NCBI RefSeq assembly: GCF_005871085.1
Contig: NZ_VAUP01000031.1
Span: forward strand, 310,001 to 374,000
Length of the DNA stretch: 64,000 nucleotides
Source of the DNA: Xanthobacter autotrophicus
GTDB taxonomy: Bacteria; Pseudomonadota; Alphaproteobacteria; Rhizobiales; Xanthobacteraceae
Direction of reading: 5' to 3'
The position numbers and the translations under genes are program-made. Shown one piece after another: positions 1 through 24,023 of this stretch. Position 1 is the stretch's first letter. Every line of letters starts with the position of its first letter. The notes under the pieces are model-generated. The model made no database searches. It had not been told where the DNA came from and saw only the letters and a program-made list of their open reading frames with translations.

Positions 1-3000
1 GATAGGCCAGACCATCCGCGCTCTGGAAGGACCTGAGGTCGATCTCGTTGATGGCGTAGCGCAGCAGCTTGGCCGAAAGCGGCGCCACCTTGATGAGACC
101 GAGGTCCAGTTCCTCCGTCTTGCCCTGACGCTGGAGCGCGGAGGTGGTGGCCCCCCGGGCGAAGCGGTCCGGCGTCTGCATGCCGCTGACGAAGAGCGCC
201 AGATAGGAGCCTTTGGCCACCAGATCGTCGTGCAGGTCGCCGTCGAGGAAGCAGAATTCGAACGGGGTGTAGACGAGGGCCCGGTTGAGCTGGTCCGACA
301 GCATCACGCCGAGCACGTCGAGATCGGCGACCGCCCCGCCGGGGGCGCGCAGCAGGGTGGAGCCGTGCACCCAGCCCACGAAGTTGTTCAGCCGGCGGTC
401 GGTCCGCATGGCCGCCGGGATGTTGAGGATCACGTCCTCCACCCCGCCGCGCACGGCGATGGCCTGGGCCACGGCGGCGTTGAGGAGCGAGGTCTCGGTG
501 ATGCCGATCCGGCGGGCGCGGGTCTGCACCCTTTCGTGCCCGGTGGCGTTGAGGAAGGCGAAGATCTCGCCGCCCGGACCGGCCTGGGTGCGGTCGAGGT
601 TGGGCGCGAGGCCCTTCGCCTTGCGGCCGAAATTCGGCAGCGGCGGCGGATTGGCCCCGTAAAGCTCGCGCACATAGGCTTCGCGCTCGGCCATGAAGAC
701 GGGGTCCGTCGCCCGGTCGAACTCGTTCACATACTGTTCGACGGTCATCTCGGGGGGGCCAAGCGGAATGCCGAGGAAGGCCTGGAACACTTCCTCCACG
801 AAGACACCCAGCGCCCAGCCGTCGAAGATGAGGTGATGGCCCTGAGCCACCACCACGTCGCCGTCTTCGCCGCCGCGCAGCACGGTGACGCGGTAAGGCG
901 CCTCCGCGAAGGGGTCGAGCGGGGAGTCCAGCAGGGCCGACAGGCGCGCCTGCACGGCCGCGGCATCGGCCCCGGGCATGTCCTCCACCACCAGGGGCGG
1001 CTCGCCGCACGGCAGGATGAGGGCGCGGGGTTGCCCGTCGTTGTCCACCACGAAGCGGGTGCGCAGGGATTCCTGCCGCTCCTCCACCAGCTTCAGGGCC
1101 CGGCGCAGGCGATCGATATCGGCGCGGGGGGCGATGCGGAAGGCGCGGCCGATGGACCAGAACACCCGGTAGGCGTGGTTGGTCCCCGGCTTCATCAGGG
1201 ACCGCAGAACGTTGTTCTGCTTGACGGAAAGCGGAACCTGCCGTTCGCCGGCGGGGGTCAGGCCGGGGGTCGCGGGGGCCGCCACGACGGGAGGCGGCAG
1301 GGGGGCCGCGGCCGCCGCGCGGCGGGCTGTTCCCGTGGATCCGTGCCAGGTGGCTGGTCCCATCGTCGCCGGCGTGCCGGAGAGCTCCGCCACGGCGGTG
1401 GCGATGGCGTCGAGGAGGGCGCGCCCGACTTCGGTCGGGAAGGCGGCGGTGTCGAGGGCGAGCCGCAGCTTGAGGCTTGCGCCGTCCGCCGTCGCGTCGA
1501 GCCGCAGCTCGTTGAACGGATCGGTGAGGGCCGCCAGCGGCTCGGCGATGCCGAGGGCCTTGGCCCGAGCCGCGCCGTCCGCGTCGATAAAGGCGAAGCC
1601 CACCTGTCGGAGCGCCGCGCCGGCGGCGTTGAGGCGGTCCGCCAGCAGGGCTTCCACGGCCGCCGTGTCCAGCGCCCGGTGGCTGCGCGCGGCGGCGAGC
1701 CGCTGGCGGGCCCGGCGGATCAGCCAGTCGGCGGGGGCGTCGAGGCGGTCCAGCAGCACCGGCATGCCCGTGCCCACGGGACCGATCAGGGTCGCGGGGA
1801 CCTCCCGCCGGGCTGGGTCATGGCATTCCACCAGCGCCCGGTCGATGCCGGAGCCGGCGGCCAGCGCACGGCCCAGCGCGGCGATGAGGAGCGCTTCCTG
1901 GTCCGGCGCGGACAGCGCGTCGAAGCCTGGTACGGTCAGGGTGGCGTCGAAATGGCCCACCGCGCCGCGATTGAGGCCGAAGCCCGTGGGCGCGGATGCG
2001 AGCGTGCGGCCAAGGCTCGGCAGGGCGGCCGGCGGGGTGCGCAGCATTTCCTTCCAGAAGGCCATGTGCCCGGCAAGGGCCATGGTGCCGTCCACGGGCC
2101 GTTCCGCCGCGGCGAAGGCGGCAAAGGGCGTGCCCGGCGCGGGCGTTGCCTTAGCCGCCGCCACGAGGGCGGCGAGCGCGAGGTGGGGCGAGAGGGAATC
2201 CGCCGCTGCGCGGTGGGCCCGCGCATGGAGCGTGAGGGCGCCGTCCGCCGCCTTGGAGAGCCCGAACCGCCAGAGCGGCCCCGGCTGGGTGACCGGGGCA
2301 AGGCCGGAGGCGTCGGTGATCCACTCGAGGTCCGGGGCTTCGCCGGCCACGATCTCACCCGACGCCGTGCCGGTGAGCTTGAGGGCGTCCTCGGCCGAAG
2401 CCAGGGCGGCGAGCGCCTGCGCCAGCGTCTCGAAATCGAGCGTGGGATCGATGGCGCGGGAGGCCGCGACCTCCAGCGCCGCGCGGGTGATGCCGGAGGT
2501 CATGGGCCGGCCGCCGAGGGCGATGACCGCCTCCTGCCTCACCAGCGGACGGAACACCGTGCCGCCGCCTGCGCCGCCGACGCCACCACCGCCGTCGGCC
2601 AGCGCGGCGGCGGTGGCGGCCCGGGCCTTCTGGGTGGCCTCGAAAGTGGCCGCCACCACGCCGGACAGGCCGGTGACGGTGGGGGTCTGGAGGAATTTGG
2701 CCACCGGGATGTTCACATCCACATGGGCCTCGATGCGGTTCTTCAATTCGAACGAGGACAAGGAGTCGAGGCCGAGTTCCGACAGGCGGCGGTCGGACGG
2801 GATGTCGTTGGGCGACACCTTCAGGACCTTCGCCACCTCGCCGCGGATAAGGTCGGCCAGCATGCCGTCCCACGCCTCGCGCGGGGCGGCGAGCAGCTCG
2901 GCCTGGATGCGCGAGCGACCGCCGGTGCGCTGGGCCAGAAGCGGCTTCACGCGGGCGGTTCCGGCGGTGCGCGCCAGAGCGCGCGAGATGGCCGCCCAGT

Positions 3001-6000
3001 CGGCGCGGGCGAAGCCGAGATTCTCGTCCTCGGCGCGCAGGAGCGTGCCGAGGGAGGCTGCGGCCTCCGTGTCCGGCACCGGCTTCATGCCGATGCTTTC
3101 AAGATAATTGCCCAGCGCTTCGGAGCGGGCGACGAAGCCCGAGCCGGCGATGGAACCCCAGGCCGCCGCCGAGCCGGCAAGGCCGCGGCTCTTGCGGAAC
3201 GAGCCCATGCCGTTGAGCACGGAATTGGCCGCCGTGTAATTGGCCTGTCCGGGGCTGCCGATGACCTGTGCCAGCGACGAGAAGCTGACGAAGAAGTCGA
3301 GGTCCGCCCCGTGCCGGGTCACCGCGCGGTGCAGGCTCCAGGCGCCGCCCGCCTTGGGGCGGATGACGCGGGAGATCTGGCCTTCGTCGAGCTGGCTGAC
3401 GAAGCCGTCCTGGATCACCGCCGCGCCGTGGACGATGCCCTTGAGCGGCTTGTCCGACTTGGCGTGGGCGGCGATCAGCGCGTCCACGGCGTCAGCGTCG
3501 GTCACGTCGAGGGCGATGGGGACGATTTCGGTGCCGCGCGCCGCGATGGCGGCGAGGACCGGCTCGGAATCCGCGTCGGGGGTGCCGTTGCGGCCGCACA
3601 GCAGCAACCGCCCGGCGCCCTGCCGGCTGAGGAAGTCCGCCACCGCCACGCCGAAGCCGCGCAGGCCGCCGGTGACGAGATAGCTCGCCTCCCCCGAGAA
3701 GCGCATGGTCTGGTTGAGGTCGACTTCCACCTCGATGGCGGGTTCGTCGAAGGTGAGCACCACCTTGCCCAGATGCTGCGCCTTGGAGAACAGGCGCATG
3801 GCCTCCGCCGCCCGGGACACCGGGAAGCGCGTGGCGACGAGGGGCCGATACAGGCCCTGCGCCACCTTGGCCTCCACCGCCCGCAGCAGGGACGACAGGC
3901 GCGCGGGGCGCTCGTCGGCGATGGTGGAGAGGTCGATGACCGAATAGGAGTTGTTGTAATAGAGCGACTTCAGCCCGATGGGCTTGTCCTGGGCGAGATC
4001 GCGCTTGCCGATTTCCACGAAGCGGCCGAAGGGCGCAAGGCACTCCAGCCCCTTGTCGATGCCGGCGCCCGACAAAGCGTTCAGCACCACATCCACGCCG
4101 CGCCCGCCGGTGGCGGCCCGGACGCCTTCGGAGAATTCGAGGCTGCGCGAGTTCATCACATGGGTGATGCCGAGGTCGCGCAGGAAGTTGCGCTTGGCGT
4201 CGGAGCCGGCGGAGGCGAGGATTTCGGCGCCGATGTCCCGCGCCACCTGGATGGCGGCAAGGCCCACGCCGCCGGTGGCGAGGTGCACCAGAACCTTCTC
4301 GTCGGGTTCGAGCCGGCCGATGTCCACCAGCGAATAATGGGCGGTCATGAAGGCGGCCGGCAGGGTGGCGGCGTCTTCCAGCGCCACGTCGTCGGGCACA
4401 TGCATGAGGAAGCGGGCGTCGGCGGCGGCGAACCGGCGCAGGAAGCCCTTGCCCATGCCCATCACCCGGTCGCCGACCTTGAAGGCGGTGATGGCTTCGC
4501 CGGTGGAGCGCACGGTGCCGGCGAATTCCAGGCCGAGATTGCGCCACCAGGCGCCTTCGCCCTCGGCCTCGTCCGGCAGGATGCCGGTGGCAGCCATGAT
4601 GTCGCGGAAGTTGAGGCCCACGGCGGCCACTTCCACCACCACCTCGCCCGCCTTGGGGGTCGGGTAGGGACACTCGCGCACCACCACATTGTCGATGAGG
4701 CCGGGGCTGGTCATCGTCACGGTGAAGTTGGCGGGGTCGGCGCTCTTGGTGATGGTGCGCCGGCGCGGCGCAAGGCTGTTGAGCGGGCCCTGCCGCAGGC
4801 GCGGCACGGTCCGTTCGGTGCCGCGCAGGATGATTTCCGCCTCGTCGCTCTCCTCCAGCACCGCCTGGGCCAGGGCCATGCCCTCGCTGAAGGCGGCGGC
4901 GTCGGCGTCCACATGGCGGACGGCGAATTCCGGGCACTCGTTGGCGAGCGTCCGCGACAGGCCGAGCAGGGCGGAATCGGCGAGGCCTTCCGTCGCCATG
5001 GGCCCGTCGCCGGGGATCAGGCGGCTGGCGCGGCCGATCACCACGAGGGCCGGCCGGCTGGGCGCGGTGCGCAGGCGGTCCAGCACCTGGCCCACCGTGA
5101 CGAGGCCGAAGGAGGCCGCTTCCACCGCCGCCACCAGGCGCTCGGTGGACAGCTCCGCCTCGGGTCCCAGCTCGACCCCCGCCGTCGCCGCATAGACGAT
5201 GCCGGTGAGGCCCTCGGGCGCGGCGAGCCGCTGTTCGATCAAGCGGGTGGCGTCCTCCGCCTGCATGGCGGTGAAGATGTCCGGTGCCAGGGTTTCCACG
5301 ATGGCGCCCGATGCCACGAGGGCGGAGGCGAGCGGCTCGGTGGTCGCTGGATCACCCGACAGCACCAGCCAGCGACCCAGCCTCACCGGGGTGTCGGCCT
5401 TGGGCGCCACGGTCTCGAAGGTTTCCTCGATCACCACGGAGCCGCCGTCACCGGCGTTCGCCTTCAGGGCGCCAAGGGTCTTGACCTTGAGGTTCTCCAC
5501 CGAGAGCAGCGGCGTGCCGTCGAGCGCGTAGACGCGGTAGATGCCGGTGTCGTCGGCGGGATCGGTGAAGAATTCGCAGATGACTTCCGGCGGCAGGGGG
5601 CCCGCCACCATCACCTTGCGGATGCCCACCGGCAGCATGAGCTTGTACTTGCCGGCGACGCTCTCCTCGTCGGGGAGCGGTTCGCCGGGGATCCACAGGC
5701 CAAGGTCCACGTCCTCCAGCACGAGGCCGGACTGGAGCACGCTGTCGAACAGGCCGGGGAAGGCGATGAAGCCGTCGCGTTTGGCGGCATCGGCGCTGGA
5801 GATGCGCGCCACCGCGTGGCGCGGCCCGGCGAGCCACAGGGCCTGCACGGCCTGGAAGGTCGGGCCGTAATCGAGCCCGTGGCGGGCGGTGAGGCGATAG
5901 AAATCCTCGCGCTCGATGGCCGGCCGGGTCGCGAGGATGGCCGGGTCGAAGCTGGCCGGCGGCACGGCGAAGGCATGCTGCCAGCCATAGGCCTCCACGC

Positions 6001-9000
6001 GCAGCCGCCAGTCTTCCTCGGTGTCGCGCTTCATGGAGGAGATGCGCAGCCGGCTGGTGGCGGGATCATACGAGGTGCGCAGCAGCACCACGTCGTCACC
6101 GCCGATGGACAGGGCCTCGTGGATGCGGAAGTCGCGCAGCTCCACCGGGGCTTCGCCGAACAGCTCGCGCAGGGCGCCCGTCATCATTTCCAGATAGCCG
6201 ACAGTCGGGAACAGGCAGTCCCCGCCGGGACGATGGTCGGCGAGATATTTGGCGCTCTTGAGGGTGATCTCGTTGGTCCAGGCCGGCTCCGGCCCGATCT
6301 CGCGCCAGCCCAGGAGCGGGTGGCGGTCGCTGTCGAACAGGAATTGCCGCGCTTCCAGCGGCAACTGCACCAGGCGCTCGTTCACCCACGGCCGACGCGG
6401 CAGGGGCAGATGTTCCTCGGCGCCGGTGTCGCTCTCGCTCCAGTCGAAGGATACGCCGTTCACATAGAGGCTCGCCAGCGAGCGGGCCATCACCAGGCGG
6501 TCGTCGCCCTGCCGCTCCAGCGAGGACACAGCCACCACGGAGGCGTTGCGCTCCTGGGCGATGCCGTGGATCAGCGGGGTAACGGTGCGGTGCGGCCCCA
6601 GTTCAAGAAAGGCATCGATGCCCAGATCCAGGCAAAAATCGATGGCTTTCTTGTAGCTTACCGCCTGGCGCAGGTTCTGCCACCAGTATTCGCTGTCGAA
6701 GCAGGTCTCCAGCATGCCGGTGACGGTGGAGACGATGGGGAAGGCCGGCGTCTTCCAGGAAATCTCGCCGAGGCCTTCGCGGAACTTCGCCTCGCAATCA
6801 TCGAGGTGGGGCGAATGCCAGCCGAAATCCATGGTGAGGCGGCGGGCGGTGACATCCGGATAAAGCCGCTTCACCTCTTCCAGCAACGCCACCACGGGCG
6901 CTTCCATGCCGGAGATGGTCTGGGCGGTGGGGCCATTATAGGCCGCGACCACCACGCTCTCGTCCGCCGGAAGCAGGGGGGCGAGCTGATCATAGGTGAC
7001 GCCGAGCGTCGCCATGGCGCCGCGCCGCGTGCTGCCGTGGGGGATGAGGCCGCGGTGATAAATGATTTTGGCGCAGGTATCGAGGTCAATGCAGCCGGCG
7101 ATATGGGTTGCCGCCACCTCGCCGAAGCTGTGGCCCACCAGCAGTTCCGGGGTGAGCCCGCGCTCCCGCCACATGCGGTAGAGGCCCACCTGGTTGGAGA
7201 AGATGGCGGCCTGGGTCACGTCCGCGTCGTTGATGCGGGTGGTGGCCTCGTCGCGGGTGATCTCCTCGATCACCGACCAGCCGGTATAGGGCTTCAGCGC
7301 CTCGTCGAAGGTCTCGACGAAGGCGCGGTAGGTCTTGTCTTCGGTGAGCAGCTTGCGGGCCATGGCCCACCACTGGCCGCCCTGGCCCGAGAAGGTGAAG
7401 GCGAGGCGCCGCGGCTTGGCGCGGCCGGTGATGATATAGGGCGCGATGGCCTCGTTGGCCGGCGCGTCGGCGCCCAGCGCGAGGGTGCGCAGCTTCAGCG
7501 GCAGATCCTGCGCCTGCGGATCGGCGAGGATCGCGGCCCGCTCGGTCAGGTGGTCGCGGCTGGTCTTGAGGGCGCTGGCCAGGGTCTCGTAGGGGACTTC
7601 GGCGAGGGTGCCGCCCTCATCCACCGCGTCGGCGAGTTCTTCCGCCCACAGGCCGAGGGCGGCCTTGCCGTTGGCCGAGAGCGGGATGAACACCGGGCCT
7701 TCGGCGGGTGCCGGCCGGGCGCGCAAGTCGGCACGCATGTCTGCACGGGGCCGCTTGCCGCCGTGGAAGCTTTCCACCGCCACCGAGGCATTGGTGCCGC
7801 CGAAGCCGAAGGAATTCACCACCGCGAGGCGTACGTCGTGCTCGCTCGAATAGGGGGTGGGCTCCACCGGGACGGACAGGCCCAGCGCATCGAACGGAAT
7901 GGTCGGGTTGGGGGTCTCGAAATTGAGGTTGGGCGGCACGATGCCGTGATGGGTGGACAGCACGATCTTGATCAGCCCGGCCACGCCGGAGGCGGATTCC
8001 AGATGGCCCAGATTGGGCTTGAACGAGCCCACCAGCACCGGCCGGTCCACGCGGCCGGCGCCGAACACGCGGCCGATGGCGCTGGCCTCGATGGGGTCGC
8101 CCACCGGGGTCCCGGTGCCGTGCGCCTCCACGTAGCCCACGTCTTCGGGATCGATGTTGGCGTGGCCCACCAGGCTTTCCAGCATGGCGGTCTGGGCCAC
8201 GTCGCTGGGGGCGGTGAGGGTGGGGGTGCGGCCGTCCTGGTTCACCGCGGAGCCGCGGATCACCGCATAGATGCGGTCGCCGTCGGCCACGGCGCGGGCC
8301 AGCGGCTTCAGTACCACGATGCCGCAGCCCTCGCCGCGCACGAAGCCGTCGGCGCGGGCGTCGAACGTATAGATCTTGCCGGTGGCCGACAGCATGTTGG
8401 CACTGGCGAAGGCCACGAACGGGCCGGGGTCCAGCATCAGGTTGACGCCGCCGGCCAGCGCCACGTCGCAGGTGCCCATGGCGAGGTGGCGCATGGCCTG
8501 GTCCACCGCCACCAGGGCCGAGGAGCAGGCGGTATCGAGCGCGATGCTCGGCCCCTTCAGGTCGAGCCGGTGGGAGATGCGGTTGGCCGCGATGGAATAG
8601 GCCGAGCCGGTGCCGGCGAAGATGTCGGTGGCGACCCGCCGGTAGCGCTGGCTGTAGCTGAAGTCGGAGGTGGAGATGCCCACGAACACGCCGGCGCGCT
8701 GGCGTTGCAGGGTGCGCAGCGGCACGCCGGAATCCTCGATGGATTCGTAAGCCACCTGCAGCAGCAGGCGCTGCTGGGGGTCCATCAGCATGACTTCGCG
8801 CGGGGCCATGTCGAAGAAGGCCGGATCGAAGTTGAAGACGTCGCCCGACAGGAATCCGCCCCACTTGGAATAGGAGCGCCCGGCGCTCTCGGGGTCTGGA
8901 TCGTAATAATTGCGGACATTCCAGCGGTCCGCCGGTATTTCGCGAATTCCGCATCGTTTTCCGAGCAGGAAGGACCAGTATCCGTCCGCGCTCGTGATGC

Positions 9001-9109
9001 CACCGGGGAAACGACAGCCGATTCCGATAACGGCAACAGCTTCGGGTTCTTGACCAAGGCCGTTTCCGACCGCCCGTGCCTGACCGTCCAGAAGATCCAA
9101 GCTATCCAT
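1..9109 (-). CDS. Large reducing type I polyketide synthase with tandem C-terminal condensation-like domains (C-terminus beyond window)
   Basis: One minus-strand frame is open from the ATG at 9109 to the left edge, giving at least 3,036 residues with the C-terminus outside the window. The domain order is: KS (Cys195 in DTACSSA, His330 in HGTGT, His369 in LGHLES); AT (Ser661 in GHSFG; specificity motif FGWH at 762-765 instead of HAFH or YASH); DH (His959 in an HxxxGxxxxP motif, Asp1122); ER (LVHLATGGVG near 1609); KR (Ser1945, Tyr1958); ACP (Ser2116 in GLDSL); a degenerate condensation-like domain (HRAAADS at 2299-2305); and an intact one (HHLIFDG from 2758). This is a complete reducing module of the iterative kind, so it probably makes a saturated chain. 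The terminal condensation domain probably releases it onto an amine or alcohol; that role is inference. No methyltransferase or thioesterase domain was seen. It shares a locus with peroxidase-like, dihaem and P450 genes. Confidence 0.95.
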   Translation of the reverse strand, partial: MDSLDLLDGQARAVGNGLGQEPEAVAVIGIGCRFPGGITSADGYWSFLLGKRCGIREIPADRWNVRNYYDPDPESAGRSYSKWGGFLSGDVFNFDPAFFDMAPREVMLMDPQQRLLLQVAYESIEDSGVPLRTLQRQRAGVFVGISTSDFSYSQRYRRVATDIFAGTGSAYSIAANRISHRLDLKGPSIALDTACSSALVAVDQAMRHLAMGTCDVALAGGVNLMLDPGPFVAFASANMLSATGKIYTFDARADGFVRGEGCGIVVLKPLARAVADGDRIYAVIRGSAVNQDGRTPTLTAPSDVAQTAMLESLVGHANIDPEDVGYVEAHGTGTPVGDPIEASAIGRVFGAGRVDRPVLVGSFKPNLGHLESASGVAGLIKIVLSTHHGIVPPNLNFETPNPTIPFDALGLSVPVEPTPYSSEHDVRLAVVNSFGFGGTNASVAVESFHGGKRPRADMRADLRARPAPAEGPVFIPLSANGKAALGLWAEELADAVDEGGTLAEVPYETLASALKTSRDHLTERAAILADPQAQDLPLKLRTLALGADAPANEAIAPYIITGRAKPRRLAFTFSGQGGQWWAMARKLLTEDKTYRAFVETFDEALKPYTGWSVIEEITRDEATTRINDADVTQAAIFSNQVGLYRMWRERGLTPELLVGHSFGEVAATHIAGCIDLDTCAKIIYHRGLIPHGSTRRGAMATLGVTYDQLAPLLPADESVVVAAYNGPTAQTISGMEAPVVALLEEVKRLYPDVTARRLTMDFGWHSPHLDDCEAKFREGLGEISWKTPAFPIVSTVTGMLETCFDSEYWWQNLRQAVSYKKAIDFCLDLGIDAFLELGPHRTVTPLIHGIAQERNASVVAVSSLERQGDDRLVMARSLASLYVNGVSFDWSESDTGAEEHLPLPRRPWVNERLVQLPLEARQFLFDSDRHPLLGWREIGPEPAWTNEITLKSAKYLADHRPGGDCLFPTVGYLEMMTGALRELFGEAPVELRDFRIHEALSIGGDDVVLLRTSYDPATSRLRISSMKRDTEEDWRLRVEAYGWQHAFAVPPASFDPAILATRPAIEREDFYRLTARHGLDYGPTFQAVQALWLAGPRHAVARISSADAAKRDGFIAFPGLFDSVLQSGLVLEDVDLGLWIPGEPLPDEESVAGKYKLMLPVGIRKVMVAGPLPPEVICEFFTDPADDTGIYRVYALDGTPLLSVENLKVKTLGALKANAGDGGSVVIEETFETVAPKADTPVRLGRWLVLSGDPATTEPLASALVASGAIVETLAPDIFTAMQAEDATRLIEQRLAAPEGLTGIVYAATAGVELGPEAELSTERLVAAVEAASFGLVTVGQVLDRLRTAPSRPALVVIGRASRLIPGDGPMATEGLADSALLGLSRTLANECPEFAVRHVDADAAAFSEGMALAQAVLEESDEAEIILRGTERTVPRLRQGPLNSLAPRRRTITKSADPANFTVTMTSPGLIDNVVVRECPYPTPKAGEVVVEVAAVGLNFRDIMAATGILPDEAEGEGAWWRNLGLEFAGTVRSTGEAITAFKVGDRVMGMGKGFLRRFAAADARFLMHVPDDVALEDAATLPAAFMTAHYSLVDIGRLEPDEKVLVHLATGGVGLAAIQVARDIGAEILASAGSDAKRNFLRDLGITHVMNSRSLEFSEGVRAATGGRGVDVVLNALSGAGIDKGLECLAPFGRFVEIGKRDLAQDKPIGLKSLYYNNSYSVIDLSTIADERPARLSSLLRAVEAKVAQGLYRPLVATRFPVSRAAEAMRLFSKAQHLGKVVLTFDEPAIEVEVDLNQTMRFSGEASYLVTGGLRGFGVAVADFLSRQGAGRLLLCGRNGTPDADSEPVLAAIAARGTEIVPIALDVTDADAVDALIAAHAKSDKPLKGIVHGAAVIQDGFVSQLDEGQISRVIRPKAGGAWSLHRAVTRHGADLDFFVSFSSLAQVIGSPGQANYTAANSVLNGMGSFRKSRGLAGSAAAWGSIAGSGFVARSEALGNYLESIGMKPVPDTEAAASLGTLLRAEDENLGFARADWAAISRALARTAGTARVKPLLAQRTGGRSRIQAELLAAPREAWDGMLADLIRGEVAKVLKVSPNDIPSDRRLSELGLDSLSSFELKNRIEAHVDVNIPVAKFLQTPTVTGLSGVVAATFEATQKARAATAAALADGGGGVGGAGGGTVFRPLVRQEAVIALGGRPMTSGITRAALEVAASRAIDPTLDFETLAQALAALASAEDALKLTGTASGEIVAGEAPDLEWITDASGLAPVTQPGPLWRFGLSKAADGALTLHARAHRAAADSLSPHLALAALVAAAKATPAPGTPFAAFAAAERPVDGTMALAGHMAFWKEMLRTPPAALPSLGRTLASAPTGFGLNRGAVGHFDATLTVPGFDALSAPDQEALLIAALGRALAAGSGIDRALVECHDPARREVPATLIGPVGTGMPVLLDRLDAPADWLIRRARQRLAAARSHRALDTAAVEALLADRLNAAGAALRQVGFAFIDADGAARAKALGIAEPLAALTDPFNELRLDATADGASLKLRLALDTAAFPTEVGRALLDAIATAVAELSGTPATMGPATWHGSTGTARRAAAAAPLPPPVVAAPATPGLTPAGERQVPLSVKQNNVLRSLMKPGTNHAYRVFWSIGRAFRIAPRADIDRLRRALKLVEERQESLRTRFVVDNDGQPRALILPCGEPPLVVEDMPGADAAAVQARLSALLDSPLDPFAEAPYRVTVLRGGEDGDVVVAQGHHLIFDGWALGVFVEEVFQAFLGIPLGPPEMTVEQYVNEFDRATDPVFMAEREAYVRELYGANPPPLPNFGRKAKGLAPNLDRTQAGPGGEIFAFLNATGHERVQTRARRIGITETSLLNAAVAQAIAVRGGVEDVILNIPAAMRTDRRLNNFVGWVHGSTLLRAPGGAVADLDVLGVMLSDQLNRALVYTPFEFCFLDGDLHDDLVAKGSYLALFVSGMQTPDRFARGATTSALQRQGKTEELDLGLIKVAPLSAKLLRYAINEIDLRSFQSADGLAY

Positions 9110-9532
9110 GGGAAGCGCCCTCTTCCGCAGAATTGCCGCAACGCAAACCTATGCGGACCGGCGCGGAGCTGTCACCTGATTTCTTCGAACTTTTTGCGAT
9201 TTGAAAGTAGATGCCTGCAAGTTAAGCAGAGTGAGGCATCATACTACCGGGTTTTGCTTGGACTCTTCAGAGCTTTTGCCTCACCACGGTGCGGACCAGT
9301 CGCCCAGGCTCATCCTCCTCATGATGCGCTGCAACTCGGGGGCGTCGTGACGTGGACCAGAAGATTCGCCGTCGCGGTGCGTCCGGCGGAAGGCGGGATC
9401 TGTCGTGTGAAGAAGAGCGCGCCGTACAATGAAACGGCCCCGGTCTTTGACCGGGGCCGGGAGGTTTTCCTAGGTCCGTGCGGAATTTATAAAGCTTAGC
9501 CGTTCGCGTGCGGTGTTGGCCCTGTCCAAAGG
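9110..9532. other. Intergenic region upstream of the PKS gene
   Basis: About 420 bases without a convincing gene. The stretch next to the PKS start is clearly richer in A and T than its surroundings and should hold the PKS promoter. An imperfect dyad with TGCCT and AGGCA arms is visible on the minus strand near 9210-9240. The far end holds the terminator of the peroxidase-like gene. The long plus-strand open frame across this region is a shadow of the PKS gene. Confidence 0.5.
9436..9458 (-). terminator. Intrinsic terminator of the peroxidase-like gene
   Basis: Perfect 10-bp GC stem (GGCCCCGGTC at 9436-9445, GACCGGGGCC at 9449-9458) with a three-base loop, 75 bases past the stop of the minus-strand peroxidase-like gene. 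The minus strand continues GTTTCATTGT, a weak T-rich tail. The hairpin insulates the PKS gene from upstream read-through. Confidence 0.7.
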
Positions 9533-11020
9533 TCAGAGCCGGTCCTCCTCCGCGGCGAGCAGGATGAGGTCGCCCAGGGAGAAGCGCGCGAAGTCGGGCA
9601 GGGTGCCCGGCGCGAGGATGGATGCATCCGAATGGCGGGCGAGCGTCCACAGGGCCTCGGCCACGATCCGGCTGCCCACCGGACCGAGGTGCCGGCCGGC
9701 GGGACCTTCGGGATCGCCGGCCTCCGCGAGAATGTAGAACCACAGCGGCGTTGCCTCGCAGAACGGCAGGGCGGCGACGCGCTGATGGTCCGGCAGGGCG
9801 GCGAGCAGGGTGTCGTCTTTCAGGGGCTTGAGGCCCATGTGTCGCGCCAGCGCCTGCCCGGTGGGCAGGCCGAGCCGGAAGCCGCGCAGGAGATGGCGGG
9901 TGGCGAGCGCTTCCACGCTTTCGGGCGCGCCGCAGATGAGGGTGTCGAGCCGCCGCGCCCGCTGCGGAGCCTCGGCGGCCAGGGGCAGGAAGCCCCCCCA
10001 GGAAATCACATGGTGCTCCGGCAGGGTCTCCGGCCCGTGCCGGCCGCCGGCGAGCACGTTGCGCGTCGCCAGCGCGCCGTGTTCCACGTTGCGGAAATGG
10101 ACATTGTAGTCATAGCTCGGCCGGCGCATGGACGGGGCCAGCACAAGGGCGGCGGCGGACAGTTCCACCGGCATGAACAGGGCGGCGGGGCGCTCCACGC
10201 GCCACAGCCGGGGGCCGTCTTCCATCACATTTTCGAGAACATCCGGCGCCACGAGCTTTGGCAGCAGGTCGAACAGCACCATCCACTGGAAGCGGCGGCG
10301 CAGTGCGCGCCGGGCCGCTTCGAACGACAGGCCGGAGGCGATGAGGGCGTTGTGGGCCTTGAGGAAGGCCACGTGCAGCTGGCTGAGAATCAGCTGCTCG
10401 TCGTTGCGGGCATCGCTCATGCGCGGGGCGCGGTCGCGGCCGGGTTCGGGGCTGCGGGGATGGCGCGGCAGGTCGTTGCCCGGGCCCGTGCGCGGCGGCC
10501 GCCCATGGGGGCAGTCCTTGGGCCTGGGCGACAGGGTGCCGACCAGCATGCGCCGCACCGCCTGGGGGTCGCGCGGGGCATCATAGACGCTGTCGAGGTC
10601 AAGCCCGCCCGAGCGTCGGTTCAAAAGGCCGGCGAGGGAGGAGAGCGGCGCGAGGGCATCGGGGCCAAGGCCCGCCTCGTCGGGCGTGCGCCGCTCCCAA
10701 ATGAGATCGTTGCGCAGGAATTCGACCAGATAGGTATAGGCGGCCGGCAGATCGCCATCGCCGGCCGACCGGACACGCGGCGGCGGTGGGCTGTCCTGGA
10801 GCGTGTCCTGCGGCTCGGCCATGACCGAGGCGAGGCGCGCGAGGTCCTTCAGGGTGCGCGGCTCCGGCGCCAGGCGATGGGCCGGCCCGCACAAGGCGGG
10901 AAACATGAAGCCGAAGCCGTGATCGGCGGGGCGGGCGCCCGATTCCAGCGCCAGGGCACGCACACGCTCCCCGATCGCCTCGTGGCGCGACGGGCGCGGA
11001 TCCTCTCCCCCCGCACACAT
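9533..11020 (-). CDS. Animal-haem-peroxidase family protein lacking both haem-site histidines
   Basis: About 495 residues with family hallmarks in order: LDLDSVY, RNDEQLILSQLH followed by FLKAHN, FMPVEL, and LGPVGSRIVAEAL near the end. The two haem motifs are altered. Where the family has QFIDHD, this protein has EFLRND (Glu100 and Asn104 replace the distal Gln and His). Where it has FGHSMVR, this protein has LAPSMRR (Pro296 replaces the proximal His). It may therefore be a pseudo-enzyme, a scaffold, or bind haem differently. Start choice: ATG at 11020 has GGAAGG nine bases upstream; ATGs at 11026 and 11044 are alternatives, and longer frames have no support. No signal peptide was seen. It lies upstream of and co-directional with the PKS, and divergent from the luxR gene. 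Confidence 0.85.
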   Translation of the reverse strand: MCAGGEDPRPSRHEAIGERVRALALESGARPADHGFGFMFPALCGPAHRLAPEPRTLKDLARLASVMAEPQDTLQDSPPPPRVRSAGDGDLPAAYTYLVEFLRNDLIWERRTPDEAGLGPDALAPLSSLAGLLNRRSGGLDLDSVYDAPRDPQAVRRMLVGTLSPRPKDCPHGRPPRTGPGNDLPRHPRSPEPGRDRAPRMSDARNDEQLILSQLHVAFLKAHNALIASGLSFEAARRALRRRFQWMVLFDLLPKLVAPDVLENVMEDGPRLWRVERPAALFMPVELSAAALVLAPSMRRPSYDYNVHFRNVEHGALATRNVLAGGRHGPETLPEHHVISWGGFLPLAAEAPQRARRLDTLICGAPESVEALATRHLLRGFRLGLPTGQALARHMGLKPLKDDTLLAALPDHQRVAALPFCEATPLWFYILAEAGDPEGPAGRHLGPVGSRIVAEALWTLARHSDASILAPGTLPDFARFSLGDLILLAAEEDRL

Positions 11021-11390
11021 TTCCATGGACCTTCCAAATGTCATTCGGTTCTTCACGCTGTTCTTGTTGCCCTTGCCCTTCTCCCTTAGGGCAGCATGGA
11101 GCCCCATGGGGCAGCATCCCGCGAATGGGGGATGACCCACCCATCCGCCGTCTTGCAGCCTGAGACGGTTGTGCAATGCTGCGATCAAGGAGCGTGACCG
11201 CTCCGGCGACGGCGGCATCGGGTGGCGTCTTGGGCGCTACCGTTCGCCCTCTTCCTTGCCTGTCGGCGAGAATTGAGGGTGCCAGCGCGCCTCTGGCTCT
11301 CGCGGGGATGAGCCATGGCGGTCCAACGGATCTGAGCGTTTCGTCCTTCCGGCCCGGCCGGACGCGGCGATGCGCGGAAATGGGACGGAC
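11021..11390. other. Divergent promoter region between the peroxidase-like and luxR-type genes
   Basis: About 370 bases with no convincing gene; frames crossing it are extensions or shadows of the flanking genes. It must hold the promoters of both divergent genes. It contains the dyad GGAGCG-N4-CGCTCC at 11189-11204, listed separately. Confidence 0.5.
11189..11204. promoter_or_regulatory. Candidate operator dyad GGAGCG-N4-CGCTCC
   Basis: A perfect 6-4-6 inverted repeat in the middle of the divergent intergenic region, next to a LuxR-family gene. LuxR-type proteins commonly bind dyads of about this size. Assignment to this regulator is inference, and I did not find the same dyad upstream of the PKS or cytochrome genes. 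Confidence 0.35.
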
Positions 11391-12527
11391 ATGGGCGATC
11401 TTGATCAATATTCCCGCCTCATCGGCGACGTGTACGAACTCAGCGGCGATCCCCAGCAGTGGGGCATCCTGCTGGAGGGGGTGACACGCTTCGTGGACGG
11501 CCGCGTCGGCCAGCTCGCGGTGTTCAGCCTCAAGCAGCAGCGCAAGCCCACCTGGCGCGTGTGGGGCCACGACCCGCAGGACTACAAGACCTTCCTGTAC
11601 CGCCACGCCACGGAAGACCCGCGCCTGTCGTACATCCTCTCCAACCCCGGCCGCATCATCTGCGGCGAGGACGGGGTGGACCCCGACCAGTTCCGCGCCA
11701 CCGCCATGTTCCGCGAGGTGGTGGAGCCCATGGACCTCGAACATTCGCTGGTCTCCTACTTCGCGCAGGAGGCGGACGTGATGGCCACCGTGTGCGCCAT
11801 GCGCGGGCGGGGGCAGGGGGCGTTCGGCGCGCCCGAGAAGCAGAAGCTGGGCCTCGTGGTGCCGCACCTGCGCCGGGCCTTTGAATTGTACGCGCTGCTC
11901 GACGAGGCGAAGGCCAAGGTGGGCGACATCGCCGCCGCACTCGACATCGTCGATGCCGGCATCTTCCTGGTGGACGCCGACATGCGCGTGGCCCACGTCA
12001 ACATGGCGGGCGACGCCATGGTGAAGGAGGGCGACATCGCCCTGCGCGGCGGCAAGCTCGCCTTCCGCGACGACCGCGCCTCGCGGCAGGTGGCGGCGGC
12101 GGTGGCGCTGGCGCTGGCCGCGGCCCGGGGCGAAGCGAACCTGCCCCACGCCGAGCACATGGAAGTGCCGCGCCCGAATTCGGACAGCGGCCCCTACCGG
12201 GTGTCGCTGCATCCGCTGCCGCTGGGCACGGGCAATGTGAAGCTCGCCACCCGCTCGCAGATCGCGGTGGTGGTGCGGGCACCGGGCCGCAGCGGTACCG
12301 ACGTGGCGCGCCGGCTGCAGACCACCTTCCGCCTCACCCCGTCGGAAGCCGCGCTCGGCGCAGCGCTGGCGGTGGGGGCCTCGCTCGCCGATTTCGCCCA
12401 GCAGCGCAGCGTGGCCATGTCCACGGTGCGCAGCCAGCTGAAGGCGCTGTACGAGAAGACCGACACCAACCGCCAGGGCGAGCTGGTGGCCCGCTTGCGC
12501 GAAAGTCTCGACCTGTCGCTGGTGTGA
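11391..12527 (+). CDS. LuxR-family transcriptional regulator with PAS-like sensor region
   Basis: 378 residues. The C-terminus (about 310-372) is a LuxR-type helix-turn-helix, with LTPSEAAL followed by a recognition helix around STVRSQLKALYEKT. The middle (about 180-240; GIFLVDADMRVAHVN) has a PAS-like pattern. I see no autoinducer-binding domain, so the ligand is unknown. ATG 11391 is preferred because GGGA lies five bases upstream and the protein then opens with MGDLDQYSRLIGD, as in relatives; ATG 11370 would add seven residues. It sits between the minus-strand peroxidase-like/PKS genes and the plus-strand cytochrome/P450 genes, so it is the obvious local regulator (inference). Confidence 0.9.
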   Translation: MGDLDQYSRLIGDVYELSGDPQQWGILLEGVTRFVDGRVGQLAVFSLKQQRKPTWRVWGHDPQDYKTFLYRHATEDPRLSYILSNPGRIICGEDGVDPDQFRATAMFREVVEPMDLEHSLVSYFAQEADVMATVCAMRGRGQGAFGAPEKQKLGLVVPHLRRAFELYALLDEAKAKVGDIAAALDIVDAGIFLVDADMRVAHVNMAGDAMVKEGDIALRGGKLAFRDDRASRQVAAAVALALAAARGEANLPHAEHMEVPRPNSDSGPYRVSLHPLPLGTGNVKLATRSQIAVVVRAPGRSGTDVARRLQTTFRLTPSEAALGAALAVGASLADFAQQRSVAMSTVRSQLKALYEKTDTNRQGELVARLRESLDLSLV

Positions 12528-12719
12528 GCCGGAGTGGGTGTGAGCTGTCGCTCGCCTGACATGCGGGCGCGCGAGGTTCTTGAGATCGGCGGCTGACGCC
12601 GGTCTCGATTGCGGACATTCTGCGCCGGCCGAGCTGAAGCTTCACGGGGGTGAGGCACCGGTTTCGGACCGGCGCATGTGCGGGCGTATGAAGACCCGCA
12701 ACAAGCTTTGGGGGAGAAG

Positions 12720-14459
12720 ATGCTGGGGCGAAAGGGTCTGTTCGTGCTCGCGGGCGTCGCGGGCTTTCTGGGCCTTGCGGCGGCCACCGACGCGATCATG
12801 TCGCGGAGGCAGGCGGTGGAGCAGGCCGGGCCGCCGAAGGTGCTCGACCAGGGCTGGTCGGACAGCCTGCGCGAGCAGTTCTACTATACCTCTCAGGGCT
12901 CGCAGCTCCTGCCCTATGTGTTCCTGCGGGCGCTGGAGCAGCCGCTCTCCGACAAGCTCTTCCTCGATCCGGCGCACATCGCCGAAATGGGCTTCCTGCC
13001 GGCGGACGGCCCCTCGCAGCTCAATCCGGACAGCTTGCCCATCGGCTTCGTGAAGGACCCGCGGCCCGGCGGAGCGCTGGGCCCCAGCGTGGGCATGACC
13101 TGCGCCGCCTGCCATACCGCCGATATCGAGGCCAATGGCGTGCGCATCCGCATCGATGGCGGCGCCGCCCTTGCCGACTACCAGCTGTTCATGAAGCGCC
13201 TGAGCCGCGCCCTCGACAATACCTTGGCCGATCCCGCCAAGTTCCAGCGCTTCGCCGCGCGCCTCGTGGCCGCCGATCCCAAGCAGATCCGCCCGGCGCT
13301 GGAGGCCACCGCCGCCGAGATCCGCCGGCTCGAGGCCGCGTCCTGGACGCCGGTGCCCTACGGGCGCGGCCGGCTCGACGCGTTCGGCCATATCCTCAAT
13401 GCGGTGGCCGCCGACGCCCTCGGCGAGCCCGCCAACTTCCGCATGCCCGACGCGCCGGTGAGCTATCCCTTCCTGTGGACCACCCCGGCCCAGCGCTACG
13501 TGCAGTGGAACGGCGTGGCCGGCAATCCGCTCGGGCGCAACCTGGGCGAGGTGCTGGGCGTGTTCGGCCACACCAGTTTTGCCAACGGCAATCCCGGCGC
13601 CTTCGCCTCCACCGCATTGCCCGGTAATCTGGTGGCGCTGGAGGCTTGGGTGGCGGACCTGAAGCCGCCGCCGTGGCCGGAAAAAGAGCTGGGCAAGGTG
13701 GACGCCGCCAAGGCGAAGCGCGGCGCCGAGCTGTTCAAGACCCATTGCTCCGGTTGCCATGGCGGTCCCGAGTATCGCTTCACCCCTGCCGCGGATACCG
13801 AGGGCGGGCGCCAGTGGCTGGCGGTCTCCATGGTGGACATCGCCAAGGTGAAGACCGACCCCAAGATGCTCACCAATTTCACCGGCCGCTTCGCCAAGCC
13901 CGGCGTGCTGGGCCCGCTGGTGGCCAACGCGCCGCACCTGTCCGACGGGCAGGTGCCGGCCGGCGCCGTGCTGCTGGCGGCGGTCACCGTCATCACCGAG
14001 AACAGCCTGCGCGCCCAGGGCATCACCGGAGATGCGCGCAAGCAGTGGTACGGCTGGCGCTTCGCCCCCGGCAGCACCGCGCCCCAGTCCGGCTGGCTGA
14101 CGCCCGCGAGCTACAAGGCCGGCCCGCTCGCCGGCGTGTGGGCGACGGGGCCGTTCCTGCACAATGGCTCGGTGCCCACCGTCTACGACCTGCTGTCGCC
14201 CGAGGACGAGCGGCCCGCCCGCTTCTATGTGGGCGCAAAACAGCTCGATACCCAGAAGCTGGGCTTCGTCTCCTCGCCCGACGCCTTCACCGAGAAGGAG
14301 CGCGAAGGCCTGTTCCTGTTCGACACCAACCTTGCGGGCAATTCCAACCGGGGCCACGCCTTCCCCGACCCCTCGGTGGCGAAGCTCTCGCCGGACGATC
14401 GCACCGCCATCATCGAATATCTCAAGATCCTGGAGGGGCCGGATGTCCGCCGCCACTGA
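12720..14459 (+). CDS. RoxA/BCCP-like dihaem c-type cytochrome
   Basis: 579 residues. A hydrophobic N-terminal segment (about 5-22) suggests export or a membrane anchor. Two c-type haem sites are seen: CAACH (Cys128, Cys131, His132) and CSGCH (Cys343, Cys346, His347). The C-terminal half carries FLHNGSVPTVYDLL, a motif typical of the cytochrome c peroxidase/RoxA-like superfamily. That superfamily includes periplasmic peroxidases and the rubber dioxygenase RoxA. Which activity this protein has cannot be decided by eye. ATG 12720 follows GGGGGAGAAG; an upstream in-frame extension has no signal. Its last codons overlap the start of the P450 gene, so the two are probably co-translated. About 190 bases separate it from the luxR-type gene. 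Confidence 0.88.
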   Translation: MLGRKGLFVLAGVAGFLGLAAATDAIMSRRQAVEQAGPPKVLDQGWSDSLREQFYYTSQGSQLLPYVFLRALEQPLSDKLFLDPAHIAEMGFLPADGPSQLNPDSLPIGFVKDPRPGGALGPSVGMTCAACHTADIEANGVRIRIDGGAALADYQLFMKRLSRALDNTLADPAKFQRFAARLVAADPKQIRPALEATAAEIRRLEAASWTPVPYGRGRLDAFGHILNAVAADALGEPANFRMPDAPVSYPFLWTTPAQRYVQWNGVAGNPLGRNLGEVLGVFGHTSFANGNPGAFASTALPGNLVALEAWVADLKPPPWPEKELGKVDAAKAKRGAELFKTHCSGCHGGPEYRFTPAADTEGGRQWLAVSMVDIAKVKTDPKMLTNFTGRFAKPGVLGPLVANAPHLSDGQVPAGAVLLAAVTVITENSLRAQGITGDARKQWYGWRFAPGSTAPQSGWLTPASYKAGPLAGVWATGPFLHNGSVPTVYDLLSPEDERPARFYVGAKQLDTQKLGFVSSPDAFTEKEREGLFLFDTNLAGNSNRGHAFPDPSVAKLSPDDRTAIIEYLKILEGPDVRRH

Positions 14460-15708
14460 GGGCAACAGGGCCTCGCCGACGCCCCTGCTCGACCGCCTCG
14501 CGGCCCTGCGGCCGGCCGAGCGCTGGCCGCTCGCCCGCGATTTCATCGCCAACGAGGCGCGCGCCTTCTTCGCCGAGCTGCGCGCCCACGCCCCCATCTA
14601 TGAGACCAGCGAGGTGACGCTGGTCGCCAAGCGCGCCGACGTGATCGAGGTGCTCTCGCTCCCCAAGGTGTTCACGGTGGATCTCTACAAGCCCAAGATG
14701 GGCGACTTCATGCTGGCCATGGACGAAACCATCGTGAATTACCGCGACAAGTCGGTGATGCGCGCCATCCTCGCCTGGGACGACCTGCCGAAGATCCGCG
14801 CCATCGCGGCGGAGGTGGCGGACACGGCGCTGGACGCCGCCGGCTGCGAGATCGAGGCAGTGCAGCAGCTCGCCCGCCACGTGCCCATGCGCATCGTGCA
14901 GCGCTGCTTCGGCATCCACGGGCCGGACCAGGACCTGCTCGACTGGTCCTATGCCAACCAGATGGACCAGTTCAACAACCTGCCCTACGACGACCGCCCC
15001 GACGCCGAGGCCATCCACCAGGCGGCGGAAGATTCGCGGGTGAAGCTGCGCACCCTGTTCGCCCAGCTGATCCCGGCGCGCATCGCCGAGATCAAGGCCG
15101 GCACCGCCCCCGACGACAGCCTGACCCGCATCCTGAGCCTGAACCTGCCGGCGGCCGACCATTTCGGCATGGACCGGGTGGTGATCAATGTGGGCGGACT
15201 GCTCATCGGCGCCATCGAGACCACGGCGGAAGCGGTCGTCAACGCCCTGGCCGAGCTGTTCGCCCGTCCCGAGGCGCTGGCCGGCGCGCGCGCGACGGCG
15301 GAAGCGGGGAACGATGCCGCCTTCGACGGTTATGTGTGGGAGGCGCTGCGCTTCTCGCCCATTGTCGCCTTCATGTTCCGGGAGGCGGCTTCCACCATCA
15401 CCATTGCCCAGGGCACCGACCGGGAGAAGGTGATCGGCAAGGGCACGGTGGTGCTGCCGCTGAGCCTGTCCGCCATGTTCGATCCCGACTTCGTGCCGGA
15501 CCCGGAGGCGTTCCGGCCCGACCGGCCGTTCCACACCTACCTGCATTTCGGCTACGGCCACCACGAGTGCCTCGGCCGCTATGTGGGCTCCGTGATGATC
15601 CCGGAGATCGTCAAACGGGTGCTGAAGCGCCCCGCCGCCCGGCCGCTGGCGCCGGTGGACATGGCCGGCACCCCGTTCCCCCAGAGCTACCGCATCGGGC
15701 TGGGGTGA
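14443..15708 (+). CDS. Cytochrome P450
   Basis: 421 residues, soluble, no membrane anchor. The haem-binding loop FGYGHHECLG is intact with Cys376 as thiolate ligand. The K-helix ExxR is present (EALR), and the I-helix reads GAIETT with Glu259 and Thr260 in the acid-alcohol positions. ATG 14443 has GGAGGGG four bases upstream and lies inside the cytochrome gene, a 17-base overlap. No ferredoxin or reductase gene is nearby, so electrons come from elsewhere or the enzyme uses a peroxide/hydroperoxide substrate. Likely substrate is the PKS-derived chain or a fatty acid (inference). Confidence 0.93.
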   Translation: MSAATEGNRASPTPLLDRLAALRPAERWPLARDFIANEARAFFAELRAHAPIYETSEVTLVAKRADVIEVLSLPKVFTVDLYKPKMGDFMLAMDETIVNYRDKSVMRAILAWDDLPKIRAIAAEVADTALDAAGCEIEAVQQLARHVPMRIVQRCFGIHGPDQDLLDWSYANQMDQFNNLPYDDRPDAEAIHQAAEDSRVKLRTLFAQLIPARIAEIKAGTAPDDSLTRILSLNLPAADHFGMDRVVINVGGLLIGAIETTAEAVVNALAELFARPEALAGARATAEAGNDAAFDGYVWEALRFSPIVAFMFREAASTITIAQGTDREKVIGKGTVVLPLSLSAMFDPDFVPDPEAFRPDRPFHTYLHFGYGHHECLGRYVGSVMIPEIVKRVLKRPAARPLAPVDMAGTPFPQSYRIGLG

Positions 15709-23925: not shown

Positions 23926-24023
23926 CGGCAATCGTCCTCATTCACCGGTCCGTCGATGCCGCCTGTGCGGGCGCATCGGCGAATCCGATCCGGCTATCAC
24001 CTCGCCCCGGACTTCGGCGGAAG

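Follow-up and report, generated by a model that had tools for sequence, protein, structure and literature searches.

The 64,000-nucleotide window analyzed here spans positions 310001 to 374000 of contig NZ_VAUP01000031.1 in the 5.0-Mb genome of a Xanthobacter autotrophicus strain. Its left end carries genes for a reducing polyketide synthase (PKS), an animal-heme-peroxidase homolog (POX), a LuxR-type regulator, a RoxA-like diheme c-type protein (CYT), and a cytochrome P450. Domain and profile searches identified all five as genes, as the initial annotation had proposed. The locus consists of two neighboring units, which are probably transcribed separately. Unit A contains the PKS, and unit B contains POX, LuxR, CYT, and P450. 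A four-gene cassette is supported, but a five-part system is not. The features of the two units in the window are as follows.

1..9109 (the open reading frame [ORF] extends 137 bases beyond the left window edge), minus strand: PKS (unit A), type I reducing, 3081 amino acids, from Pfam domains and the full ORF
9435..9459, minus strand: terminator-like hairpin with an 11-pair stem, a 3-base loop, and the tail TTTCATTGTA, a consensus match only
9533..11044 (start at 11044 or 11026), minus strand: POX (unit B), animal-heme-peroxidase homolog without heme ligands, from Pfam and motif comparison
11115..11134, no strand assigned: operator-like dyad CATCCCGCGAATGGGGGATG in the divergent POX/LuxR intergenic region, from a genome scan and conservation
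11153..11181, plus strand: promoter-like TTGCAG-N17-ATGCTG, a candidate LuxR promoter read from the sequences
11391..12527, plus strand: LuxR-type regulator with a PAS-like domain (unit B), from NCBIfam and Pfam
12720..14459 (alternative GTG start at 12678), plus strand: CYT, RoxA-like diheme c-type protein (unit B), from NF040606 and the RoxA structure 4b2n
14443..15708, plus strand: cytochrome P450, 421 amino acids (unit B), from P450 motifs

The CYT and P450 genes overlap by 17 bases. The order POX/LuxR-CYT-P450 is conserved in 12 of the 14 Xanthobacter genomes compared (G010 is 93% complete and G005 88% complete), which indicates that the grouping is not due to chance. Counted gene by gene, POX and P450 are each present in 12 of these genomes and an orthologous CYT in 13, the CYT match of the incomplete G005 being distant. 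The same order was found in Methylobacterium crusticola, and six further Methylobacterium loci combine LuxR and P450, whether CYT is present or not. Co-occurrence of the five families in other genomes, the check suggested by the initial annotation, was thus confirmed for POX, LuxR, CYT, and P450 but not for the PKS.

The P450 contains the motifs GAIETT, WEALRF, and FGYGHHECLG, with the ExxR motif, the Cys loop, and the I-helix acid-alcohol pair all present, and has no N-terminal hydrophobic segment. Among named genomes its closest relatives are from X. oligotrophicus and X. autotrophicus, and a search of the PDB returned many P450s with E values of 2.5e-13 or worse, none of them close. A scan across named genomes yielded 270 P450 relatives, of which the 79 best-scoring loci, not a random sample, were compared. 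Strict patterns for ExxR, the Cys loop, and the acid-alcohol pair were matched in 77, 64, and 76 of them, respectively, and the variants listed as departing from the ExxR and Cys-loop patterns keep the Glu, Arg, and Cys residues. All 12 of the sequences aligned share the acid-alcohol pair of the window P450, E259-T260.

CYT has a hydrophobic N terminus and the motifs CAACH, CSGCH, and PFLHNGSVP, which match the FadCcp pattern of two CxxCH motifs and a MauG-type PYFHNGSVP. It belongs to NF040606 (di-heme cytochrome c peroxidase), with a score of 549.2 bits against a cutoff of 150. RoxA (4b2n) is the closest solved structure by profile match (E value of 3.2e-28), and CYT lies far below the NCBIfam cutoffs for RoxA, RoxB, and RoxC (69.1, 78.1, and 69.2 bits versus 1000, 900, and 900), which sets it apart from these three proteins. 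Between the heme motifs is an invariant Trp (W267; W253 in A5 numbering), a candidate counterpart of the bridging W302 in RoxA. Among the CYT ORFs of the 79 loci, two CxxCH motifs were present in 75 of 75 and the HNGSV motif in 73 of 75. CYT resembles RoxA of Xanthomonas and the FadCcp proteins PA2077 and PA2078 of Pseudomonas in its two CxxCH motifs, PxxHNGSVP motif, similar size, and N-terminal export or anchor segment; it differs from FadCcp in that its partner is a P450 and not a second diheme protein. The histidines of the two heme motifs are 215 residues apart in CYT, compared with 245 in PA2077 (likened here by description), 235 in PA2078, and 199 in RoxA, as given in PMC4496055. PA2077 of Pseudomonas is a RoxA-type diheme 10S-dioxygenase (10S-DOX) of oleic acid, whose overexpression is toxic unless PA2078, a 7,10-diol synthase, is coexpressed (PMC4496055).

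The pairing of CYT and P450 extends well beyond Xanthobacter. CYT directly adjoins P450, with a gap of at most 400 bases, in 67 of the 79 loci from several phyla (60 upstream and codirectional, 7 convergent), and in 3 more it lies one gene away with LuxR between. When the ORFs of these loci were clustered, the largest clusters were those of P450 (79) and CYT (70). The next clusters were antisense to P450, CYT, or LuxR by position, and the largest others comprised 17 loci (beside Nitrosomonas-type P450s) and 15 loci (LuxR). Pairwise distances of P450 and CYT were correlated (r = 0.85, compared with a maximum of 0.33 in 1000 permutations; 68 pairs, consisting of 67 loci and the window), a value that includes shared species history. 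As a control, 20 loci around weaker P450 matches were searched, and a homolog of CYT, COX-like protein, POX, or catalase was found in none of the 20 (the P450 of L275 was not redetected). A DyP homolog, however, lay approximately 1 to 2.2 kb away in 3 of the 20 (L256, L257, and L271), and the second-tier loci L247 to L249 also have a DyP homolog 1.5 to 2.2 kb away. The DyP association therefore extends by degrees into the weaker relatives, so that for DyP the control is not a clean one.

In less selected samples, six genomes from outside the genus with P450 matches at E values of ≤1e-40 had an adjoining CYT in four cases and DyP in two. All three genomes with a P450 match in a class-wide sample of 289 genomes contained a DyP homolog, one with an ORF between and one (L245) scoring 26.7 bits against a cutoff of 27.5. 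Among nine plasmid records, three had a COX-like gene, one had an adjoining CYT, and four from Methylobacterium had CYT approximately 1.4 kb away (one arranged CYT-regulator-P450 by annotation, three assigned by coordinates); H37 was not counted. The P450 of G037 is identical to that of a Bradyrhizobium barranii plasmid, and the two are not independent. A P450 of the same family in a Methylovulum locus (L166, 9953-13098) has a multicopper oxidase gene after it, and its flank contains no CYT.

In rhizobia the partner of the P450 is a different oxygenase. Plasmids of Rhizobium etli, Sinorhizobium medicae, and Rhizobium gallicum carry a gene for a COX-like peroxidase-family protein directly after the P450 gene, as listed below.

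L236 5908-8810; L237 5935-8852; L250 5001-7849: rhizobial plasmid tandems of P450 and a COX-like (prostaglandin-synthase-like) gene

The two genes are 20 bases apart in R. etli and overlap by 52 bases in S. medicae according to the annotation, and their aligned parts are 62 bases apart in R. gallicum. The R. etli protein matches prostaglandin synthase 2 (PGHS-2) with an E value of 4.7e-57. The rhizobial COX-like proteins read YRWH, with the Tyr-x-x-His of Ppo-type enzymes, where COX has YHWH, and their distal site, LTDGF, is close to the FtdsF of Nostoc 10S-DOX and unlike the FthqF of COX. The three rhizobial P450s group together (100/99), with a CYT-paired P450 as their sister (100/97), and the group falls inside the CYT-paired rows of the tree as drawn with a midpoint root and with long branches flagged. 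More distant members of the P450 family (G096, G108, G127, G226, and G267) adjoin a DyP-type homolog, one ORF away in G267, and each of these homologs has a GxxDG motif. An Actinomycetota metagenome-assembled genome (L202) has no CYT at the locus; a COX-like gene and a POX homolog lie a few kilobases from its P450.

Lipase-like and catalase-family genes also occur near these genes. G127 has an LCAT-like lipase gene (37.8 versus 21 bits) after its DyP-P450 pair, and in L244 (392-4635) a DyP homolog, P450, and LCAT-like lipase are codirectional with gaps of 57 and 11 bases. COX-like genes lie beside small catalase-family genes in Paracoccus yeei and Methylobacterium currus (L252 3033-5617; L254 5073-7641). 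On pNGR234a (L238 2766-8819), a catalase-family gene, a hypothetical gene, a CYT homolog, and a patatin-like gene stand in a row, the last scoring 26.0 bits against a Pfam cutoff of 27.7. The Pfam scores of the P. yeei and NGR234 catalase-family proteins are weak.

Taking these comparisons together, we consider with moderate confidence that unit B may be a locally regulated, modular lipid-oxygenation cassette and that unit A may belong to a separate pathway. CYT is predicted to be membrane anchored with its hemes in the periplasm, where it may oxygenate an unsaturated fatty acid with O2 in the manner of its homolog PA2077, and of RoxA acting on rubber. The P450, predicted to be cytoplasmic, may then hydroxylate or rearrange the product, and since the acid-alcohol pair is kept, this step could be a hydroxylation and not an isomerization. 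CYT and the COX-like partners have unrelated folds, and for each of them a homolog that makes 10-hydroperoxy fatty acids has been characterized. The COX/catalase and catalase/CYT/patatin neighborhoods fit a set of interchangeable oxygenase and hydroperoxide-handling parts, the link to lipids being suggested by company and homology. The Nostoc 10S-DOX, a member of the COX superfamily, makes 10S-hydroperoxides that are used by a catalase-related lyase, as described in PMC13049297. It follows the same split two-gene logic, its T-D-x-F distal motif is shared by the rhizobial proteins, and the COX-like genes of P. yeei and M. currus likewise adjoin catalase-family genes; in the present loci, however, the partner is a P450, and the dioxygenase candidate in the window is a diheme protein.

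Several points weigh against this reading, in addition to the ties between the PKS and unit B considered below. CYT was not found in the fetched flank of 9 of the 79 loci (the contig of L155 begins 520 bases upstream), including Methylobacterium L146, L147, and L149, where LuxR is beside P450. No ferredoxin or P450 reductase was found among the neighboring genes scanned (ORFs of at least 100 amino acids). As judged from their sequences, CYT would be periplasmic and the P450 cytoplasmic, so that a shared substrate would have to cross the membrane. The E259-T260 pair is more in keeping with a hydroxylase that uses O2 than with a hydroperoxide isomerase of the Ppo kind; PMC13049297 discusses an acid-alcohol pair for a conventional hydroxylase. 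The AlphaFold model of CYT is good (predicted template modeling score of 0.80), but Foldseek searches with it returned no RoxA, so the link to RoxA depends on the sequence profile, with no contribution from the predicted fold. Finally, DyP partners have no fixed link to lipids.

Alternatively, CYT and P450 may form an electron-transfer or peroxide-handling pair, with CYT serving as a diheme peroxidase that disposes of H2O2 or organic peroxides, or as an electron carrier, and the P450 acting on a nonlipid substrate. The name of NF040606, the DyP peroxidases adjoining the same P450 family, and the peroxidase homolog with intact histidines in the M. crusticola cluster, the latter two of which may use peroxide, are consistent with such a role. 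However, the different compartments assigned to CYT and P450 by sequence speak against it, and the COX-like partners and lipase-like neighbors point to lipids; we judge a peroxide or electron pair unlikely.

POX is a very divergent member of its family, scoring 16.7 bits against the Pfam An_peroxidase cutoff of 25. At the distal site, Asn replaces His (RND for DHD; ND for HD) in 12 of 12 Xanthobacter loci, whereas the distal His is present in all 8 POX homologs examined from other genera, which read GQF[IV]DHD. At the proximal site (APS for GHS), Pro was found in 10 and Arg in 1 of the 11 Xanthobacter loci in which the motif was found, and the motif was not located in L044; where this motif could be located in homologs of other genera, it is FGHSM or LGHSM. 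The M. crusticola POX keeps both histidines. The ratio of nonsynonymous to synonymous substitution rates (dN/dS) of POX is 0.14 to 0.27 in 11 pairs, on average slightly above those of CYT and P450, and the reading frame is intact in 12 of 12 loci. These values place the gene under purifying selection. POX homologs are sparse, being present in 13 of the 289 class-wide genomes, the source genome included. The AlphaFold model is poor (predicted local distance difference test score of 48), and its top Foldseek matches are myeloperoxidases at E values of 0.09 or worse.

POX as an active heme enzyme was rejected since the heme histidines are lost, and POX as a decaying pseudogene was rejected in view of its dN/dS values and intact frames. 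The plus-strand ORF at 9632-11089 was also considered as a peroxidase gene; it is antisense to POX, matches no family, and gave PDB hits with E values of 0.72 at best. On the simplest account, a peroxidase homolog that had been active lost its heme in the Xanthobacter line yet stayed useful, and POX may persist as a heme-free protein, perhaps in a structural or lipid-binding role. The "three heme-fold proteins" of the initial annotation are therefore an overstatement: CYT and P450 have their heme motifs, but POX has lost its heme ligands. A conserved pseudoperoxidase raises the question of what the peroxidase fold does without heme.

The comparison with the fungal Ppo enzymes, or linoleate diol synthases, made by the initial annotation has to be moved from POX to the relatives of the P450. 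With its heme histidines gone, and with the catalytic Tyr-x-x-His not present in the window, POX is not a Ppo-type dioxygenase. The analogy revives in the P450 relatives that stand beside COX-like dioxygenases with YRWH. Likened by description and not by sequence, the Ppo enzymes also combine a heme oxygenase with a P450, and the HHECLG of the window P450 corresponds to the HxCxG Cys pocket reported for fungal CYP partners in PMC13049297. They differ in that the window genes are separate, unfused ORFs, POX has no heme ligands, the oxygenase candidate is a diheme c-type protein, and the P450 keeps the acid-alcohol pair.

It is a tentative possibility, below an even chance, that bacteria have a mix-and-match oxylipin machine, an unfused counterpart of the Ppo fusions, in which the half contributed by this P450 family is constant and its partner has been exchanged among diheme RoxA-type proteins (most loci), COX/10S-DOX-type proteins (rhizobia), and DyP-type proteins. 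The Xanthobacter POX would then be a frozen trace of such an exchange, having retained its position and purifying selection after the loss of both heme histidines, as is suggested by the M. crusticola counterpart, which has the same gene order and keeps both histidines. The known cases of bacterial oxylipin enzymes are few (Pseudomonas Ods and Nostoc 10S-DOX). No published description of CYT-P450, COX-P450, or DyP-P450 pairs was found among the matches listed, in a search that covered mainly literature outside subscription journals. If true, the proposal would provide a testable oxygenated-lipid pathway in many cultured organisms, including Nitrosomonas, Methylobacterium, rhizobia, and Xanthobacter. 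It would also point to a specific candidate, in bacteria, for the association of dioxygenase and P450 that PMC13049297 postulates as ancestral to the fungal fusions.

Local regulation of unit B is suggested by a conserved dyad. The dyad CATCCCGCGAATGGGGGATG at up to 3 mismatches has one site in the window (0.07 expected) and one in the 5.0-Mb genome, and it was found in the POX/LuxR region of 12 of 12 Xanthobacter loci. In an ungapped comparison of eight diverged loci, its mean pairwise identity was 0.86, compared with 0.41 and 0.42 in the 60-base flanks. The element TTGCAG-N17-ATGCTG is conserved downstream of it; a scan with the sigma-70 consensus gave no match in the LuxR promoter region. 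The POX/LuxR intergenic region of M. crusticola contains the dyad CCTCCCCAAAAGTGGGGAGG, and G090 has CTACCCCCAAATGGGGGTGG upstream of a LuxR-related regulator gene adjoining CYT. Ahead of the LuxR-like genes of Methylobacterium L143 and L145 to L149, and of those in L235 and L239, no dyad of the Xanthobacter type was found; L147 has a shorter dyad, TCATCCATTTGGATGA, at this place. The regulator itself has a PAS_4 match of 23.4 bits (cutoff, 23.1) and a weak C-terminal NCBIfam similarity to BagY/FevT (1.8e-4), and Pfam listed no GerE-type helix-turn-helix at E values up to 1. It shares 24% identity over 360 residues with the CYT-linked regulator of G090, and its kin adjoin CYT or P450 in other genomes. 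The LuxR protein may bind the dyad and control transcription in both directions.

The PKS has the domain order KS-AT-DH-(structural KR region)-ER-KR-ACP-condensation by Pfam. Its C-terminal condensation domain (1.1e-25) keeps the HHxxxDG motif as HHLIFDG, resembles the condensation domains of nonribosomal peptide synthetases (NRPSs), and matches NRPS PCP-C didomain structures. By eye, a degenerate second condensation-like stretch, with HRAAADS for HHxxxDG, lies ahead of it at approximately residues 2190 to 2600. The large plus-strand ORF over the PKS gene has no Pfam domain and was rejected. The reducing PKS had been recognized correctly in the initial annotation, but that account was incomplete in lacking its C-terminal condensation domain and the last 137 bases, which lie outside the window. 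The reported lack of a transporter is likewise an artifact of the window edge, since the PKS gene is followed by three genes just past it (L002 coordinates minus 14000 give window positions).

L002:12618-13925, minus strand, outside the window: HlyD-type adaptor, overlapping the end of the PKS gene
L002:11448-12593, minus strand, outside the window: MacB/FtsX-type permease
About L002:10711-11424, minus strand, outside the window: ABC ATPase

The adaptor exceeds the general RND_mfp cutoff (175.4 versus 94.9), and the permease scores only 42.9 bits against a DevC NCBIfam cutoff of 290.35. The arrangement of a reducing PKS followed by an adaptor, a DevC/MacB-like permease, and an ATPase is that of the cyanobacterial heterocyst glycolipid PKS with DevBCA, to which unit A is likened by kind and not by HglE sequence; the Xanthobacter PKS differs in ending with a condensation domain and in a permease far below the DevC cutoff. 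The best NCBIfam match of the PKS is to the mycobacterial Pks2-type lipid PKSs (residues 25 to 2138, 1167 bits), although it is below the cutoff of 2400 bits and the Xanthobacter enzyme has a fused condensation domain. The PKS of unit A may build a fatty-acid-like chain, which the condensation domain would pass to an acceptor and the adjoining ABC system would export.

The distribution of the PKS differs from that of the four genes of unit B. Strong matches to its C terminus are present in 10 of the 14 Xanthobacter genomes, and among the 79 loci a PKS homolog occurs only in those of Xanthobacter. No match of its kind was found in X. tagetidis (G007), X. agilis (G013), or an uncultured Xanthobacter (G010), all of which keep POX-LuxR-CYT-P450; X. 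agilis has two weak, generic matches, and contig ends close by limit the view of the locus in X. agilis and G010. The PKS also occurs without the four genes. In G076, which belongs to another family, the PKS, adaptor, permease, and ATPase genes are in the same order, the exporter has 56 to 73% identity, and no gene of unit B adjoins them. In G005, which is 88% complete, the PKS is on a short contig and no P450 or POX match was found.

A single pathway, in which a lipid chain made by the PKS is oxidized by the P450 and the diheme protein under LuxR control, has been weighed against these data. In its favor, the PKS adjoins POX in nine Xanthobacter genomes with all five genes syntenic, and the neighborhood may mean something; the two genes are 423 bases apart and both on the minus strand. 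In addition, the window has a shorter CATC-N8-GATG dyad, CATCATGAGGAGGATG, some 220 bases ahead of the PKS start, and the loose dyad pattern was matched upstream of the PKS in L037, L038, and L039, as well as upstream of CYT in L041. However, the four other sequences aligned with the window lack CATCATGAGGAGGATG, and in Xanthobacter none of the PKS, CYT, and P450 genes was seen to have the conserved 20-base dyad ahead of it. Three terminator-like sites were found in the region, compared with a mean of 0.6 (standard deviation, 0.9) in shuffled sequences, and one of them, the hairpin listed above, separates POX from PKS. The PKS absences, the G076 arrangement, and this hairpin argue against a single pathway, which we regard as quite improbable, and the PKS, missing in three genomes and elsewhere found with its exporter only, lies outside the conserved unit.

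Finally, a RoxA-like cleavage of an isoprenoid or carotenoid by CYT, with hydroxylation of the fragment by the P450, is very improbable: RoxA is the closest solved structure and Xanthobacter and Methylobacterium make carotenoids, but CYT is far below the RoxA, RoxB, and RoxC cutoffs and the CYT-P450 pair is common in Nitrosomonas and Nitrosospira, which are not known for carotenoids.

Other genes were observed around the two units. Within the window, an indolepyruvate-ferredoxin-oxidoreductase-like protein of 1159 amino acids with TPP, POR, and DUF6537 domains is encoded at 18564-22043, and a NicO nickel-transport protein gene overlaps a DUF1007 gene at 22241-23931. Beyond the left edge, at L002 5983-10565, a MarR regulator gene is divergent from genes for a flavin reductase, an HpaB-type monooxygenase, a cupin-like protein, and an amidase.

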